Assembly: GCF_000814825.1 (NCBI RefSeq)
Contig: NZ_CP009302.1
Location: 248,001 to 312,000, forward strand
Length of the DNA: 64,000 bases
Source of the DNA: Berryella intestinalis
GTDB taxonomy: Bacteria > Actinomycetota > Coriobacteriia > Coriobacteriales > Eggerthellaceae
Reading direction: 5' to 3'
Under the pieces are notes generated by a model. The model did not search any database, was not told the DNA's origin, and saw nothing but the letters and a program-made list of their open reading frames with translations. Shown one piece after another: positions 1-6,403 of this stretch. Each line of letters begins with the position of its first letter. The first letter of the stretch is position 1. A program made the position numbers and the translations under genes.

Positions 1-813
1 GGCCCCGAGGGGGCGGGCGCCCACGAGTCCGCGCCGCGCGAAGGCTCGCAGGCGCGCGTGCGGCGCGAGGCGCCCGAGCAGCCCGAAGGCGCCGCGGATG
101 CCGCTTCCGACGGGGGCGATGCCGCCGTATCCGACGGCGCGGCCGAAAGCGGGGGGCCTGCCGGGTCGGAACCCGCCGAGGCTCCAGGGTCGCCTGCCGC
201 CCCGGGTTTTAGCGGCTCGGTCATCGACGGGCTGCGTGAAGAGTCGCGCGAGCGCCCGGCGAAGCGCCGCCTGCCGTTCACGTTCACCCCGCTTAAGATG
301 ACGCTGGCCATCGTCGGGCTGATATGCGCGGTGCTGATCATCCTGTCTGCGGTGTTCTGCTGGAACCGCTGGTGGCGCTACGACGATGCCGCCGACTTCA
401 AGGGCCTGTGGTTCGTGGCGGGCACCGACGTGCCGGTCGTCATCGACGAGACCACCATCGAGCTCACCGACGACGTGTCCTACACGTACGCGATCGATGC
501 GGGTGCGAAGACCATCTCGTTCGATTTCGGAAATATGAAGGGATCGGGCCGCTACTACTTCAGCGACGACCGCCGCGAGCTGGTGGTGATCGACGGGGAG
601 GGCTACACCGCGTCGTCGACGCTGGCAGAGGACGTCGGCCGCGCGTTCTCGGAGCTTTGGGCGCGGGTTTCCGGCAAAGGGCCCGAAGCCCCCTCGGGCG
701 AGGGGGTGAGCGTGTTCGAGCGCCAGCCGGCCGAAGCGCAGCAAGGGGCAGACGATGCCTCCGGCGAGGCGGCCGATGTTCAGGAGGAGGGCGCCGATGG
801 ATCGTCCGGTTAG
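1..813 (+). CDS. Single-pass membrane protein, unknown function (5' partial)
   Basis: The frame is open from base 1 to the TAG at 811-813, so the true start probably lies upstream. A GTG at 58 has no visible ribosome binding site. About 100 residues of low-complexity Ala/Gly/Glu/Pro-rich, presumably cytoplasmic, sequence lead to a basic stretch and one transmembrane helix (about residues 101-121 counted from base 1). A beta-rich extracytoplasmic domain of about 80 residues and an acidic tail follow. I recognise no family. It heads a run of tightly spaced genes: the next start lies inside its last codons, which suggests co-transcription with the aminotransferase and Ddl genes. Confidence 0.6.
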   Translation, partial: GPEGAGAHESAPREGSQARVRREAPEQPEGAADAASDGGDAAVSDGAAESGGPAGSEPAEAPGSPAAPGFSGSVIDGLREESRERPAKRRLPFTFTPLKMTLAIVGLICAVLIILSAVFCWNRWWRYDDAADFKGLWFVAGTDVPVVIDETTIELTDDVSYTYAIDAGAKTISFDFGNMKGSGRYYFSDDRRELVVIDGEGYTASSTLAEDVGRAFSELWARVSGKGPEAPSGEGVSVFERQPAEAQQGADDASGEAADVQEEGADGSSG

Positions 814-1210
814 GATCGAGCGCATCGTCGTTCGGCGCGATCGGATCGTGTGCGAGGTCGCGATCCCCGACCCTCGGATGCGGCGCACTACACCGATTCT
901 TTCCCGCCGCGCGCTGGATTCCTACCCGACCCTCGCGCATCATGCCTGTATCAATGAGAAGGGGAAGACCTTCGGTGCCGTGATCGAGGGCACCTCGGTT
1001 CCCCATCTGCTGGAGCACATGATCATCGACGAGCAGGTTCGGCGCTCATCGTGCGATGCGGCGTCGTTCACGGGGACGACGCGCTGGGTCGACGAGGACG
1101 CGGGAGTGGCTCGCATCGAGGTGAGCTTCGCCGACGACCTGTGCGCGCTGGCTTCCGCCAAAGAGGCGGAACACCGCTTAAACGACGCAATGAGAAGGTG
1201 TTTTCAATGA
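797..1210 (+). CDS. Small protein resembling the cyanophycin synthetase N-terminal domain
   Basis: A 137-residue protein. ATG 797 is chosen because AGGAGG sits at 782-787; the gene overlaps the preceding stop, and its TGA overlaps the next ATG (ATGA). The central motif GTSVPHLLEHMIIDEQ, preceded by LAHHAC and followed by FTGTT, follows the pattern seen near the N terminus of cyanophycin synthetase (H-x-C ... GT ... H-x-x-EH ... Q ... FG-x-T). The ATP-grasp and Mur-ligase domains of that enzyme are absent here. The HLLEH motif also recalls M16 zinc peptidases, but the flanks fit CphA better. Translational coupling to an aminotransferase and an ATP-grasp ligase suggests a role in amino-acid or peptide ligation. 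The homology is from memory of the family; the function is inference. Confidence 0.5.
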   Translation: MDRPVRIERIVVRRDRIVCEVAIPDPRMRRTTPILSRRALDSYPTLAHHACINEKGKTFGAVIEGTSVPHLLEHMIIDEQVRRSSCDAASFTGTTRWVDEDAGVARIEVSFADDLCALASAKEAEHRLNDAMRRCFQ

Positions 1211-2472
1211 CAAGCGCTCATCTGAAGTTCGAACGCGCGACCGAGAAGGTCTCGGCCTGCGTATCCGGGATGCGGCCCTCGGCGGTGCGCAACCTGTTCG
1301 CGGCCGCCAATCGTTCGGACATCATCTCCCTGGCCGGCGGCATGCCCGACGTTTCGCTGCTTCCCCAGTCGGCGGTGCGCAAGGCCACCAAGGCGGCCTG
1401 GTCGGACGAGATGTCGGTGGCGCTGCAGTACGGGGGCACGGACGGCCGCATCGAAACGCGCCGGGTGTTCTCGGACCTGATGCGCGACGAGGGGATCCGC
1501 TGCAAACCCGAGAACATCATCATCACCTCGGGGGCCCAGCAGGCGCTCGACCTCATCGGGAAGACGTTTCTGGACCCCGGCGACATAGTCATCACCGAAG
1601 GGCCCACGTACCTGGGGGCCCTCCAGGCGTTCTCCGCGTACGAGCCCGACATCCGCTGCATCCCTTTCGACGAGGCCGGCATGCGCATCGACCTGCTGGA
1701 AGCCGAGCTCGAGCGCATTGGGAAGGACAACCCGCGCCTGAAGTTCCTCTACACCATCCCGAACTTCCAGAACCCCGGCGGCGTCACCATGGTTCCCGAG
1801 CGCCGCAAGCGCCTGATCGAGCTGTCGAAGGAGTACAACTTCATCGTGGTCGAGGACGATCCGTACGGGCGCCTGCGCTACGACGGCGGCCATGTGCTGC
1901 CCCTCAAGGCGCTCAGCGACGACGTGGTGTATCTGGGGACGATCTCGAAGGTGTTCGCGCCGGGGCTGCGCTGCGGGTGGGTTGCCGCCCCGTCCGGCGT
2001 GCTGTCCAAGATCAACCTGGCCAAACAGGGCACCGACCTGTGCGGCAGCTCGTTCGACCAGGTGGTGGTCGAGCACTATTTCCGCGATACGCCGTGGCAG
2101 AAGACGCTGCAGAAGTTCGTGAAAACCTACCGCACGCGCCGCGACGCCATGCTGAAGGCGCTTGACGAGTACTTCCCGCCCGAGGCGACCTGGACGCGCC
2201 CCGAAGGAGGGTTCTTCGTGTGGGTGACGCTTCCGACGTACGTGGATACGTCGTCCATGCTGGCCGAGGCTTTGGCATCGGGGGTCATCTACACGCCGGG
2301 CGACGGCTTTTTCCCCGATGGGAAGCGCGGGCGCAACAGCATGCGCATCGCGTTTTGCTACGAGAGCCCGGAAAACATCGACGAGGCGATCAAGCGGCTC
2401 GCCGCCGTCATCGAAGAGAAGCTCGAACTGTACCGCGCCTTCATCGAGGCCGGCGCGCTGAAGGAGGAGTAA
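1207..2472 (+). CDS. PLP-dependent aminotransferase, class I/II (2-aminoadipate/aromatic type)
   Basis: A 421-residue fold-type I aminotransferase. ATG 1207 overlaps the upstream stop in an ATGA junction. Expected features are in order: the substrate-loop ISLAGGMPD, the cofactor loop TSGAQQALDLIG, the NPGG segment in IPNFQNPGG, the aspartate in VVEDDPYG, and the pyridoxal-phosphate lysine in TISKVFAPGLRCGW. The C-terminal arginine that binds the substrate carboxylate is in SMRIAFCY. It resembles LysN/MocR-type transaminases that use aminoadipate, aromatic or branched-chain substrates; the substrate cannot be told from sequence. It ends with TAA directly abutting the Ddl start, so the two are probably translated from one message. 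Confidence 0.85.
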   Translation: MTSAHLKFERATEKVSACVSGMRPSAVRNLFAAANRSDIISLAGGMPDVSLLPQSAVRKATKAAWSDEMSVALQYGGTDGRIETRRVFSDLMRDEGIRCKPENIIITSGAQQALDLIGKTFLDPGDIVITEGPTYLGALQAFSAYEPDIRCIPFDEAGMRIDLLEAELERIGKDNPRLKFLYTIPNFQNPGGVTMVPERRKRLIELSKEYNFIVVEDDPYGRLRYDGGHVLPLKALSDDVVYLGTISKVFAPGLRCGWVAAPSGVLSKINLAKQGTDLCGSSFDQVVVEHYFRDTPWQKTLQKFVKTYRTRRDAMLKALDEYFPPEATWTRPEGGFFVWVTLPTYVDTSSMLAEALASGVIYTPGDGFFPDGKRGRNSMRIAFCYESPENIDEAIKRLAAVIEEKLELYRAFIEAGALKEE

Positions 2473-3456
2473 ATGAAGGTTGCGGTTTTGATGGGCGGAA
2501 CGTCGTTTGAGCGGGAGTTCTCCCTGGCCAGCGGAAAGCGCGTGTGCGCCGCGCTCGAGGAGGCGGGCCATCGCGTCATCGCGCTGGACACCAACAAGGA
2601 GCTCGTCCCCACGCTGCGAAGCGAGCGCCCCGACGTGTGCTACAACGCGCTTCACGGAAAGCACGGCGAGGACGGGTCCATCCAGAGCCTGCTGGAATTC
2701 GTGGGCATCCCCTTCGTGGGGTCTCCCGCGTCTGTGTGCCAGCGCACCTGGAACAAGGACTCGCTCCATTCCGAAATGGCGACGTACCGCGCGATCACGG
2801 GGGAGGCACCCGTCGCCTCGTGGCCCCAGGGTATCTGCATCGCCCGCGACGCGTTCAAGTCCATGGGCGCCGCGACGGCGCTCGATCTGGTCGAACAGCG
2901 CGTCATCGGGGGCTATCCGGTTGCGGTGAAGCCCGCCCATGGCGGTTCGGCCCTGGGCGTGCATCGCGTCGATTCCCAGGATGATCTGGGAGAAGCCATC
3001 CTCGATGCGCTCTCCTACGACGATGCGGTGGTCATCGAGCAGTGGATAGAGGGGGTCGAGATGGCCGTCTCGATCCTCGGGACCGGGTGGGACGCCTATG
3101 CGCTGCCGCCGGTCGAGATCGTGTGCAACGATGGGCTGTACCTCACCGAGCAGCGCATCGATCCGGTCAACGTGGACTACTTCGCGCCGGTGCGCAACGC
3201 GTCTTTGGCTGATAACGAGGCGGACGCCCAGGCCATCCGCGCCGAGATCGAGCGAGCCGCCCTCGAGGTGTACCGCGCCTACCGCATATGCGATCTGGCC
3301 CGCATCGACTGCATCTGGGACGGCGGATCGGTTCGCGTGCTCGAGGTGAACGTGTCTCCCGGCATGACCGACACCTCGCTGTTCCCGGCGGCGTGCGAGG
3401 CTGCGGGGCTGTCGATGCCCAACGTGCTGAACGAGCTGGTCGAGAACTGCCGATAG
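2473..3456 (+). CDS. ddl: D-alanine--D-alanine ligase
   Basis: A 327-residue ATP-grasp ligase that joins two D-alanines for peptidoglycan precursors in the cytoplasm. Visible motifs: the N-terminal MGGTSFEREFSLASG loop, HGKHGEDGSIQ, ATP-binding VKPAHGGSALGV, and the metal-binding EVNVSPGMTDTSLFP near the C terminus (the family usually has EVNTxPGMT). Length is normal. It starts on the base after the aminotransferase stop. Its operon with a CphA-like small protein, rather than with mur or van genes, is unusual. No vanH or vanX lies nearby, so I see no reason to call it a D-Ala-D-Lac ligase. Confidence 0.88.
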   Translation: MKVAVLMGGTSFEREFSLASGKRVCAALEEAGHRVIALDTNKELVPTLRSERPDVCYNALHGKHGEDGSIQSLLEFVGIPFVGSPASVCQRTWNKDSLHSEMATYRAITGEAPVASWPQGICIARDAFKSMGAATALDLVEQRVIGGYPVAVKPAHGGSALGVHRVDSQDDLGEAILDALSYDDAVVIEQWIEGVEMAVSILGTGWDAYALPPVEIVCNDGLYLTEQRIDPVNVDYFAPVRNASLADNEADAQAIRAEIERAALEVYRAYRICDLARIDCIWDGGSVRVLEVNVSPGMTDTSLFPAACEAAGLSMPNVLNELVENCR

Positions 3457-3602: not shown

Positions 3603-4121
3603 ATGGGCAAGCTCTCCACACTCATCATCGGCGGTGCGATCGGCGCTGCCGCCGCCCTTCTGTACGCACCTCGCCGCGGTGAGGAAACGCGCGCTATGGT
3701 CAGCGAGAAGGTCAACGCCATCTGGGGAGAGGCCAAGGACTTCACCGCCCGCGCCCCTCAGGGCGTCCAGGCCGCCTACGATAGCGCCCAGACGCGCGGC
3801 GAGTCGGTGTTCCACGGCGCTGCCGCGAAGGGTCAGGAATTCGCCCAGACCGCGAAGGTTCAGGCGACCGAATTCGCCCATAAGGCAACCGAGAAGGGCC
3901 AGGAGGCGTACAACGCCGTGGCTTCGCGCGTGCAGGAAGCGGTTTCGGCGGGCCCCGAGCATCCCGCTGCGGCCTCCGACGAGCTGCGCGAGAAGATCGA
4001 GGCCGCTCGTCAGCGCATCGCGGCCCAGGTCGTGAAGAACGCCGAGGAAAGCCGTCCCGCCCCGGTCGAGATCCAGGCGGATGCGGTGTCCGACGTCAAA
4101 CCCGATGACACCCGGGAGTAA
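3603..4121 (+). CDS. YtxH-domain protein
   Basis: A 172-residue protein with AGGAGG at 3591-3596. The N terminus carries the YtxH signature: a short glycine/alanine hydrophobic segment (about residues 7-21) followed by LLYAPRRGEETR. The rest is charged, Ala/Gln/Glu-rich and predicted helical, with repeated segments such as AxxKGQEFAQT and ATEKGQEAYN. YtxH proteins are small envelope-associated, general-stress-type proteins of unknown biochemical role. The PRC-barrel gene follows at 4231 with its own likely promoter. Confidence 0.75.
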   Translation: MGKLSTLIIGGAIGAAAALLYAPRRGEETRAMVSEKVNAIWGEAKDFTARAPQGVQAAYDSAQTRGESVFHGAAAKGQEFAQTAKVQATEFAHKATEKGQEAYNAVASRVQEAVSAGPEHPAAASDELREKIEAARQRIAAQVVKNAEESRPAPVEIQADAVSDVKPDDTRE

Positions 4122-4230: not shown

Positions 4231-5292
4231 ATGGCAAGCTCCATCGCAACCACCGACGACATAGCCGGTTCGCGCGTCATCGTCCAGGGCCGCAAGGGGA
4301 AAGAGCGGCGCGTGGGCAAGGTGTCGCGCTTCGTGTTCCACCCCAAAGAGAAGCGCATCGTCGGCTTTCTGGTGAAGCGCCCCGACCTGGCGCTGATGTT
4401 TCACAGGAAAGACCTGTTCGTGGCCTTGGACGGCTATACGGTCGAAGACGGGCGCATCGTTGTGGACGATGACGACGGCGCTTGCGGGAAGAAGGCCGAG
4501 AAGTCGCTGGGCGTCGATTTCGATCGCTGCGTTCTGTGGTCGGGCATGCCCGTGGTCACCGCTTCGGGCGAAACGCTGGGCGTCGTGGGCAACGTGAGCT
4601 TCGACCGGTTTTCCGGATCCCTGGTATCGCTCGAGGTCAACGATGGAGCGGCCAACGACGCTATCGTCGGCAGGAGAACCGTTCCCGCCGATTTGGTGAA
4701 GGGGTTCAGGTTCGGTATCGGCGCACCGCTGTCTGATCACGGCCCCGACGCCTCCGAACGCGAGGAAGAGGAGGTCGTGCGCGGCGCCATACTCGTGTCC
4801 GACGAGGCAGCCCGCATCGAGACCGAGGGCGGCGCCGCGGATGCGGCGGGCAAGGCCGCCGCTAAGGCGACCGAAGCGGTGCGCAGCGCGGTAAGCGACC
4901 TGAAGCCGGGCGTGGCGGATGCGACCAAGGCCGCCGGCGACGCCATCAACAAGGGCGCCTACGCAACCGGGCGCCAGATCGGCCGCGCGAGCGGCATGTT
5001 CGGCGCCTTCAAAGAGGAGTACCGCAAGGAGGTCGGCCAGCCCGCACCGGCTTCGAAACCCCGACCGGCGGCTTCCAGCGCCGCTTCTCCGTCGAAGTCG
5101 AACGCAGGTCAGAGCGCTTCTCCACATTCCTCACAGAAAAAGTCGGATAAAAAAGCAACTTCTGCGAAGCCTGGCGTAAGGAAGAAGCCCCAGAATGAGA
5201 CACTCGGCCACGCGGTTGGCAAACAGCTGGGCCGAGCGGGCGGCATGTTCGCCGCTTTCAAGGAAGAGTACGACAAGGCTCGGAAGGAATAG
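4231..5292 (+). CDS. PRC-barrel protein with duplicated C-terminal motif
   Basis: A 353-residue protein; ATG 4231 is chosen for AGGAGG at 4221-4226. Residues about 1-80 and 95-160 look like two PRC-barrel beta domains (GKVSRFVFHPKEKRIVGFLV; SGETLGVVGNVSFD). A helical Ala/Lys-rich region follows. A 20-residue motif occurs twice, at residues 247-266 and 330-349, sharing 15 positions (G-Q-GRA-GMF-AFKEEY-K). A Ser/Pro/Lys-rich linker separates the copies. PRC-barrels act in RNA processing (RimM) and photosynthetic reaction-centre assembly, and occur in many stress proteins. The role here is unknown. The repeated motif may be an amphipathic membrane or partner-binding helix (inference). Confidence 0.7.
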   Translation: MASSIATTDDIAGSRVIVQGRKGKERRVGKVSRFVFHPKEKRIVGFLVKRPDLALMFHRKDLFVALDGYTVEDGRIVVDDDDGACGKKAEKSLGVDFDRCVLWSGMPVVTASGETLGVVGNVSFDRFSGSLVSLEVNDGAANDAIVGRRTVPADLVKGFRFGIGAPLSDHGPDASEREEEEVVRGAILVSDEAARIETEGGAADAAGKAAAKATEAVRSAVSDLKPGVADATKAAGDAINKGAYATGRQIGRASGMFGAFKEEYRKEVGQPAPASKPRPAASSAASPSKSNAGQSASPHSSQKKSDKKATSAKPGVRKKPQNETLGHAVGKQLGRAGGMFAAFKEEYDKARKE

Positions 5293-5346: not shown

Positions 5347-6126
5347 ATGGGCGATTGCAAAAAAACAGTTCGTGAGAAGGTGCAGAGCGAGACGACGGTG
5401 CGCGGCCGCACTATGGAGAAGGGCGACGTCTACCGCTTCATAGCCCTCATCGCCATATTCGCCGCCGTGGTCGTGGCCGTGGTGCTGATGTGGCCCACGC
5501 TGAAGGACCTGTTCTCCGAAGGCGGCGTGAATCGCCTGGTCGAGCACGTGCGCGGGGCGGGTGCGGCAGGTGTGGTCATCCTGCTGGGCTTGCAGCTGTT
5601 CCAGGTGATCGTGGCCTTCATTCCCGGCGAGGTGGTCCAGATAGCCGCCGGGCTGATGTACGGCCCATGGCTGGGCGCGCTTATCATGGTGGTGGGCGCT
5701 CTCATGTCCTCGGCGCTGGTGTACCAGCTGGTCCACAAGCTGGGCGCGCCCTTCGTCCAGAAGATGGCCCCCCAGAAGTACCTCGAGAAGATCTCCAAGT
5801 TCGAGGAATCCAACAAGTTCGAAGTCGTCGTCTTCCTGCTGTTCCTCATTCCGGGGCTTCCCAAAGACGCCTTCACGTACCTGCTGCCGCTCACCAGGAT
5901 CAGGATGAAGCCGTTTTTGGTCCTGACCACCATCGCGCGCACGCCCGCCATCCTGGCGTCCACCGTCGCGGCTTCGGGTTTCGCTGACGGAAACATAGCC
6001 CTCAGCGTAGTCATCATGGTAGTGGTCGGCGGTATCGCCGTGGTCGGCATCATCTTCCAGAACCGCATCATCGATTTCGTGAGCAGCCGCGTCAAAGGCG
6101 AGAGGGGAACGTCCAGTGGAAGCTAG
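5347..6126 (+). CDS. TVP38/TMEM64 family (VTT-domain) membrane protein
   Basis: A 259-residue inner-membrane protein of the DedA/VTT superfamily. A first helix spans about residues 29-49. The two re-entrant signature segments are PGEVVQIAAGLMYG (93-106) and PGLPKDAFTYLLP (169-181), with two or three further helices towards the C terminus. Relatives act in lipid or small-molecule movement across the membrane; the substrate is unknown. ATG 5347 has only a weak ribosome binding site (AGGTTTT). ATG 5413 just before the first helix is an alternative start. The end overlaps the TM2 gene by 11 bases. Confidence 0.8.
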   Translation: MGDCKKTVREKVQSETTVRGRTMEKGDVYRFIALIAIFAAVVVAVVLMWPTLKDLFSEGGVNRLVEHVRGAGAAGVVILLGLQLFQVIVAFIPGEVVQIAAGLMYGPWLGALIMVVGALMSSALVYQLVHKLGAPFVQKMAPQKYLEKISKFEESNKFEVVVFLLFLIPGLPKDAFTYLLPLTRIRMKPFLVLTTIARTPAILASTVAASGFADGNIALSVVIMVVVGGIAVVGIIFQNRIIDFVSSRVKGERGTSSGS

Positions 6127-6403
6127 CCCCGCTGCGGTCGACTTCCGACCCCCGAAAAAACGCGTCACCGCCGCGCTTTTCGCCGTGTTCGGAGGCGCGT
6201 TCGGGCTGCACAAGTTCTACCTGGGCTATTACCAGACCGGGTTCATGATGCTCGCCTGCAGCGTGGTGGGCGGCATCCTCACGCTGGGTTTGGGGACGGG
6301 CATCAGCCTCATCATCTCCCTCATCGAGGGCCTCATCTACCTGATGGATTCCGACGAGGCGTTCCAGAAAACCTACGTCCGCTCGGTTCGCGAGTGGTTC
6401 TAG
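6116..6403 (+). CDS. TM2-domain membrane protein
   Basis: A 95-residue protein with a GTG start at 6116, preceded by GAGGGGAACG. The TM2 signature KKRVTAALFAVFGGAFGLHK followed by FYLG and two hydrophobic hairpin helices is plain (residues about 14-75). TM2 proteins are small bacterial membrane proteins of unknown role. The overlap with the TVP38 gene suggests translational coupling. Confidence 0.75.
   Translation: MEASPAAVDFRPPKKRVTAALFAVFGGAFGLHKFYLGYYQTGFMMLACSVVGGILTLGLGTGISLIISLIEGLIYLMDSDEAFQKTYVRSVREWF

Follow-up and report, generated by a model that had tools for sequence, protein, structure and literature searches.

A stand-alone cyanophycin synthetase N domain, probably a metallohydrolase, in Coriobacteriia

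In 2022, the N domain of cyanophycin synthetase (CphA) was reported to harbour a hidden catalytic site within the synthetase. According to that report (PMC9262961), Cys, His, Glu and His residues of the SuCphA1 N domain form a metal site that cleaves cyanophycin, the CphA1 motif is Cx19HxxEH, the domain also binds the polymer via charged patches, and the excised domain is active in trans. Here, we explored a stand-alone protein of this kind, denoted NDOM, which is encoded in the window, i.e., the whole 64,000-nucleotide stretch of Berryella intestinalis DNA analysed (positions 248001–312000 of C1 in genome G000, a single contig of 1.97 Mb). The first-pass annotation of this DNA, from which the label Eggerthellaceae for the window's family is also taken, had recognized by eye a CphA N domain in a 137-residue protein, coupled to an aminotransferase and a D-Ala–D-Ala ligase, and had suggested a split ligase or an accessory factor of the latter, with no mention of the catalytic site. 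Our analysis supports the homology and leads us to a different function: NDOM is, with reasonable probability, an autonomous cytosolic metallohydrolase that shares its fold and active site with the CphA1 N domain and acts on a peptide other than cyanophycin. In the open-access literature, we found no paper on a stand-alone N-domain family, which is not proof that none exists.

The homology of NDOM to the CphA N domain, together with an intact site, is close to certain. NDOM matches the Pfam family PF18921 (Cyanophycin synthase-like N-terminal domain) with an E-value of 3.9e-7 and 30.5 bits, over the cut-off of 27; among its relatives, the protein at locus L157 scores 48.6 bits and the tailed one at L144 25.8 bits, just under the cut-off, and stand-alone copies from genomes G702 and G771, outside the class, reach 52.4 and 51.8 bits, respectively. 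In agreement with the earlier description of the small protein as devoid of the catalytic domains, the Pfam scan of NDOM reported neither an ATP-grasp nor a Mur-ligase domain, and the model of full-length cyanophycin synthetase, TIGR02068, gave 24.2 bits against a cut-off of 850. The AlphaFold2 model of NDOM, with 47 family sequences as input, has a mean predicted local distance difference test score (pLDDT) of 97.6, and in a Foldseek search of the Protein Data Bank (PDB) it places CphA1 structures at all of ranks 1–4 (E 3.0e-4 to 6.8e-4). In VIA, 128 of the 137 residues align with residues 1–141 of 7txv_A at a Z-score of 15.1 and a root-mean-square deviation of 2.5, the best listed row other than cyanophycin synthetase having a Z-score of 8.3; the fold searches speak only to the families that they list. 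A class-wide NDOM profile run against PDB sequences retrieved, up to an E-value of 1, CphA only (7wac, 2.1e-14; 7lg5, 2.4e-10; 7txv, 6.8e-9), the search with the single NDOM sequence giving nothing. Thus, what had been read by eye is borne out by the Pfam score and by both structure searches. Next in the Foldseek ranking, after the CphA1 structures, come those of LuxS (E 0.065, template modelling (TM) score 0.27; 0.25–0.29 over the LuxS rows when normalized to the query); LuxS also has an HxxEH motif plus a Cys ligand, and a distant link between NDOM and LuxS, or convergence, is possible.

The site was followed in an alignment of 12 N domains from CphA genes of other actinomycetes and 88 stand-alone rows, namely, 47 from the window's family, 39 from elsewhere in the class and two from outside the class. 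All nine of the 12 CphA frames that were scanned pass TIGR02068 (1142–1179 bits), and one of the three remaining frames is broken (235 aa). The motif residues of NDOM are H49-x-C51, G65-T66, H70-L-L-E-H74, Q80 and F91-x-G93-T94, and the columns of H49, C51, F59, T66, H70, E73, H74 and D114 are invariant in the 47 family rows. The equivalents of C59, H79, E82 and H83 of CphA1 are identical in all 100 rows, and that of H57 is kept in 85 of the 88 stand-alone rows (47/47 in the family, 37/39 elsewhere in the class, 1/2 outside it). The spacing between Cys and His is 19 in each of the 12 CphA rows and 18 in the window's NDOM and 65 of the 88 stand-alone rows, the rest being eight rows with other values and 15 outside the pattern.

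We propose that one metal ion (Zn or Fe) would be held by C51, H70 and H74, that E73 would activate a water molecule, with H49, F59 and T66 positioning the site, and that the activated water would attack a peptide carbonyl. Hydrolysis is likely because NDOM is kin to an enzyme of shown activity, the CphA1 N domain, and NDOM is probably a peptidase. Two other uses of the same residues have to be weighed. As a His2Cys metalloenzyme, NDOM might catalyse something other than the hydrolysis of peptides, in the manner of a deformylase or of LuxS, given that the CphA1 study compares the site with that of peptide deformylase (PMC9262961) and that LuxS is the first to follow CphA1 in the Foldseek ranking; the LuxS TM-scores are low, however, and where activity has been demonstrated in a relative, it is that of a peptidase, so that we regard this as quite unlikely. 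Alternatively, NDOM could be non-catalytic, a protein stabilized by metal and retained for its surface, with a peptide-binding or regulatory role, as might be expected from the polymer binding by charged patches of the CphA1 N domain and from the greater variability of NDOM outside the site compared with the aminotransferase and the ligase. However, none of the 88 stand-alone rows departs from Glu at the general-base position, and metal binding alone would not require this residue; a purely non-catalytic role is, accordingly, unlikely.

By contrast with the metal site, the cyanophycin contacts have changed. At the position of R70, Arg is present in 12 of 12 CphA rows and in none of the 88 stand-alone rows (Val in 42 of 47 family rows, Glu in 23 of 39 other class rows); at that of Y110, Tyr is present in 12 of 12 CphA rows and nine of 86 class rows (Ala in 44 of 47, Phe in 25 of 39). 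S60 of CphA1 is likewise replaced in the stand-alone rows, and position 90, which is Arg or Gln even in the 12 CphA rows, carries little information. No match over the cut-off of the cyanophycinase model TIGR02069 was obtained in 24 class genomes or in G702, the sub-cut-off matches in seven of the 24 scoring 19–22 bits against a cut-off of 126.6, and both CphA-bearing control genomes have a cyanophycinase close to CphA. Coriobacteriia appear to be devoid of cyanophycin itself. Judging from these sequence differences and from the loss of an N-terminal loop (see below), the substrate has probably changed. Thus, although the fold and metal site shared with the SuCphA1 N domain would allow NDOM to act as an endo-cyanophycinase on imported cyanophycin, the replacement of R70 in every stand-alone row and of Y110 in 77 of 86 class rows, along with the lack of a cyanophycinase over the cut-off, which disfavours cyanophycin catabolism, makes such a role highly improbable.

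The loop in question, an eight-residue RG(P/G)N-x-(W/F)-S-Y segment near the N terminus, is present in 12 of 12 CphA rows and in none of the 88 stand-alone rows. Its columns hold two residues, instead of eight, in all 86 stand-alone rows that can be assessed, the other two starting too late for the loop to be judged. This loop is probably the one that contains Y14 and I17 of SuCphA1. In the SuCphA1 study, Y14 and I17 are reported to sit in a hydrophobic loop touching the M domain; without mutation of both residues the excised domain was insoluble, and with it the domain worked in trans (PMC9262961). NDOM is built to stand alone and, with no signal peptide seen by eye, would be cytosolic. A long charged tail follows the N domain in families f2 and f3 (L144:4740–6104, L150, L283:1673–3346, L284:1535–3169), several of these tails having a terminal motif of the GPHRVR or GPQRVR kind; no Pfam domain was reported in the tailed L144 protein apart from its sub-threshold N-domain match.

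NDOM was found in 130 of the 138 family genomes (91 of 92 high-quality ones) and in 376 of the 396 class genomes (307 of 314), the class tally being identical with two profiles. One match was obtained in 367 class genomes and two in nine. Coordinates were compared for six of the latter: in five (G044, G087, G096, G135, G136), the matches are neighbouring pieces, seemingly of one gene, and in G084 a short second piece lies on a separate contig; the second matches in G365, G411 and G217 are outside this comparison. No frame of CphA length occurs among the class matches listed, and the two frames checked (701 and 554 aa) consist, by eye, of the N domain and a charged low-complexity tail. In a sample of the phylum, 62 of 396 genomes match, 38 in the class and 24 outside it; 20 of these 24 matches fall within frames of 924–1334 aa, and the other four comprise two stand-alone copies (G702, G771), one apparently broken frame and one frame running into N. 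For other phyla, stand-alone copies were sought in a plasmid collection only, in which 72,556 records yielded seven matches, all annotated cphA, and no stand-alone copy. In the tree, a long branch (100/100) sets the 12 CphA rows apart, and the rows of the window's family, 47 in number, form another group (99/88), but the tree is unrooted (its root is arbitrary), its bootstrap had not settled, and it does not give the direction of change between CphA and the stand-alone form.

The two stand-alone copies outside the class have neighbours of their own. In the small genome G771, the N-domain gene overlaps the start of a gene for a Zincin_2 metallopeptidase (PF10103, 195.3 bits; L278:311–1877), which, when searched in 36 genomes of the class to which G771 belongs, was found in G771 and G702 only. 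In G702, a Phage_holin_3_6 protein (32.1 bits; L265:10136–11211) adjoins the N-domain gene in divergent orientation.

Comparison with a congener suggests that NDOM and its two partner genes are kept by selection, NDOM the least strictly: dN/dS is 0.060/0.337 for NDOM, 0.014/0.50 for the aminotransferase and 0.024/0.462 for the ligase, hereafter Ddl2. Given its presence in nearly all family genomes and the dN far below dS, NDOM is not a chance open reading frame.

The coupling seen in the window was correctly described: NDOM and the aminotransferase share a 4-nt start–stop overlap (ATGA, 1207–1210), and Ddl2 begins at the base directly after the aminotransferase stop (2472/2473). We surveyed 49 family loci, one each from 46 other genera plus three from the window's genus. 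The next recognized gene after NDOM is the aminotransferase in 27, YtxH in 13 and a Ddl homologue in five, with none in the available stretch in four, and a lipocalin-like membrane protein (UP) lies directly upstream in 45. YtxH and PRC-barrel genes each occur downstream in 39 of the 49, as they do in 23 and 22, respectively, of 41 named loci. Among these 41, a holin-like membrane protein directly upstream and an RlpA-type gene further upstream are each present in 35, UPF0182 is upstream in 30, and the aminotransferase is the next gene in 22. The names rest on single representatives (DPBB_1 for the RlpA-type gene, UPF0182 and the holin-like protein), of which the holin-like one scores 24.2 bits, below the Pfam cut-off of 28.4 that the G702 copy passes. 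In f2 and f3, a CorC-like gene usually comes first, followed by NDOM with a long acidic tail, then YtxH and PRC. Thus, the succession NDOM–aminotransferase–Ddl2, followed by YtxH and PRC, recurs widely across the class, but the aminotransferase–Ddl2 pair is optional. The two outcomes that the first-pass annotation had named as refuting it, a structure search without a CphA N-domain match and a gene order not shared by relatives, therefore did not arise.

How optional the pair is became clear from 50 NDOM carriers, comprising 20 family genomes chosen for an aminotransferase not beside NDOM, five with the aminotransferase there and 25 from other families. An orthologue of the aminotransferase (at least 47% identity) was found in 24 (3/20, 5/5 and 16/25, respectively) and was missing from 26, a match at 39% in G078 being counted as another aminotransferase. 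All 23 aligned rows from genomes lacking the orthologue keep Cys and HxxEH. In 23 of the 24 genomes with the orthologue, a Ddl homologue lies within about 1 kb of it on the same contig (divergent, 27%, in G371), and in G073 it is on another contig. The pair is located away from NDOM in, e.g., G188, G285, G282, G110, G198, G174 and G171; G016, G037, G071 and G096 have no aminotransferase and still have a divergent Ddl beside NDOM. The pair is thus a separate unit that is often in the same cluster as NDOM, and NDOM itself is independent, being present in 376 of 396 class genomes and persisting without a neighbouring aminotransferase.

These observations bear directly on the suggestion that NDOM binds and assists Ddl2 in the way the N domain assists the G domain in CphA. 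The recurrence of the gene order from other families of the class to the window's own, as well as the start–stop overlap, would fit a split ligase or accessory subunit. However, no aminotransferase orthologue is present in 26 of the 50 chosen carriers, several genomes have the pair at a distance from NDOM, Ddl2 is equipped with both Ddl domains of its own, and none of the 86 stand-alone rows that can be assessed has the N-terminal loop of CphA. The site of NDOM is, moreover, kept in all 23 aligned rows without the aminotransferase. An accessory role is not supported, and we consider it very unlikely.

The first-pass designation of the neighbouring ligase holds in part. Ddl2 is an ATP-grasp protein of the Ddl family, with 4zqi as its best solved relative (E 1.8e-42), but it does not reach the NCBIfam cut-offs for D-Ala–D-Ala ligase (PRK01372, 219.7 vs 243; TIGR01205, 195.4 vs 245.65), and another Ddl in the genome, at C1:1958791, scores 198.8 bits with PF07478, against 129.5 for the operon copy. 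In 71 Ddl2 rows (at least 44% identity; some genes counted twice and a few rows misaligned), with site positions assigned by E. coli numbering, 68–69 rows retain the His, Ser, Arg and Ser of the Ddl site and 55 the first-site Glu. The position of the omega-loop Lys is Arg or Met in 68 rows and the next Tyr is Tyr in 28, the four canonical Ddl copies shown having K-Y there; by its sequence, Ddl2 may use an acceptor other than D-Ala. The best relatives of the aminotransferase among PDB sequences are 1x0m (E 2.1e-112) and 3aov (3e-112), and also 1wst, with 2egy lower (1.6e-73). Of these, 1x0m and 3aov are Pyrococcus aminotransferases and 2egy is a 2-aminoadipate aminotransferase of Thermus.

The three genes might then constitute a module in which an amino acid provided by the aminotransferase is built by Ddl2 into a dipeptide or another short peptide, and wrong or surplus product is hydrolysed by NDOM, with a further role for NDOM where the pair has been lost. 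This arrangement would be akin to VanH–VanA–VanX, with unrelated enzymes. The joint occurrence of aminotransferase and Ddl homologue in 23 of 24 genomes and the omega-loop replacement in 68 of 71 Ddl2 rows, unlike the four canonical copies, speak for such a module; yet NDOM persists without the pair, and the best solved relatives of the aminotransferase look like general L-amino-acid enzymes. On balance, the module is improbable. A broader scenario, to which we give similarly little credence, would make NDOM a class-defining stand-alone enzyme of Coriobacteriia, a new peptidase family split from the CphA lineage that trims a non-ribosomal peptide; in full clusters, the aminotransferase and the altered Ddl2 would make that peptide, an unlinked version of the make-and-cut logic of CphA1.

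Under the reading that we prefer, an autonomous metallohydrolase, the substrate would not be cyanophycin but a different peptide, most likely derived from turnover of the cell envelope, given that several recurrent neighbours (the lipocalin-like or holin-like membrane protein, the RlpA-type protein and Ddl2) look like envelope genes; as to the identity of the substrate, this is a guess from the neighbours. Several observations weigh against our interpretation. The envelope link comes from gene neighbourhood only, and the PRC, YtxH and DedA neighbours are uninformative on peptide chemistry. NDOM is not needed by every member of the class, since it gave no match in all three genomes of family f14 (G148, G160, G165) and in 17 further class genomes. 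E87, which supports H83 in CphA1, has its Glu equivalent in 37 of 39 other class rows but in only two of 47 family rows, the other 45 having Asp (37 rows), Ser, His or Thr; the F67 equivalent, Phe in 47 of 47 family rows, is Phe in 27 of 39 other class rows and not in 12. The conserved Cys, His and Glu could instead hold a metal for structural reasons or take part in a reaction other than that of a peptidase. Finally, the set of 50 genomes is not random: all were picked as NDOM carriers, and some are incomplete. The three f14 genomes could themselves reveal what is lost along with NDOM.

The features of the locus are collected in Table 1. NDOM is the single match in the window's genome, and its start overlaps the 3′ end of the UP gene by 17 nt. 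The UP frame is open at the 5′ end of the window, position 58 being the first start codon present. UP has no Pfam family above cut-off; its model has a pLDDT of 90.8, and its best match in VIA is potempin E, with a Z of 8.9 across 78 residues, the other listed families having Z of 7.0 or less. We considered NDOM as the remnant of a broken CphA gene and rejected this possibility: in the six window genes scanned, there is no Mur-ligase domain and the only ATP-grasp is that of Ddl2. PADLOC gave no anti-phage defence match for the two proteins tried. Positions 6116–6403 of the window encode a small protein with the appearance, by eye, of a TM2-domain membrane protein.

Table 1. Features of the NDOM locus, in window coordinates
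Feature	Coordinates	Strand	Evidence or correspondence
NDOM, stand-alone CphA-N-domain protein, 137 aa	797..1210	+	PF18921 30.5 bits; AlphaFold2 pLDDT 97.6; VIA Z 15.1 to 7txv_A residues 1–141
H49-A50-C51 of NDOM	941..949	+	H57 (second-shell His) and C59 (metal-ligand Cys) of SuCphA1
F59 of NDOM	971..973	+	F67 of SuCphA1
V62 of NDOM	980..982	+	position of cyanophycin-contacting R70 in CphA1
H70-L-L-E73-H74 of NDOM	1004..1018	+	HxxEH metal-binding/general-base motif (H79, E82, H83 of SuCphA1)
Pyridoxal phosphate aminotransferase, class I/II	1207..2472	+	PF00155 117.7 bits
Second Ddl-family ATP-grasp ligase (Ddl2)	2473..3456	+	PF07478 128.5 bits, PF01820 73.2 bits
Upstream membrane protein (UP)	58..813	+	long N-terminal helix in modelled part, then lipocalin-like domain
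YtxH-like protein, recurrent downstream neighbour	3603..4121	+	PF12732 58.9 bits
PRC-barrel protein, recurrent downstream neighbour	4231..5292	+	PF05239 43.1 bits

The occurrence of a natural single-domain version in nearly all sampled genomes of the class, in which no full CphA appears among the listed matches, suggests an independent life for a small His2Cys metallopeptidase-like fold. NDOM is a widely kept gene in a class with many gut bacteria, a compact enzyme suited to direct testing, and a possible route to an uncharacterized peptide in Coriobacteriia.

Compared with known systems, the locus departs from each in definable ways. Ddl2 shares with D-alanine–D-alanine ligases both Ddl Pfam domains and most site residues but scores under the NCBIfam cut-offs and has the omega-loop Lys replaced, with a higher-scoring Ddl elsewhere in the genome. 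With the M16 peptidases (inverzincins), to which the CphA1 N domain is distantly related according to PMC9262961, NDOM has HxxEH in common; however, NDOM is only 137 residues long, and its candidate third ligand is the upstream Cys (88 of 88 stand-alone rows), whereas M16 enzymes, as described in the same source, use a downstream residue. The closest system is the CphA1 N domain (PF18921; 7txv, 7lg5, 7wac), with which NDOM shares the fold, the upstream metal-ligand Cys, the HxxEH helix and the Thr that precedes it. Unlike that domain, NDOM is encoded by a separate gene without an ATP-grasp or Mur-ligase domain, has Cx18HxxEH instead of Cx19HxxEH, as do most stand-alone rows, and lacks R70 and the RGPN-WSY-type loop, the stand-alone rows being mostly without Y110 as well.

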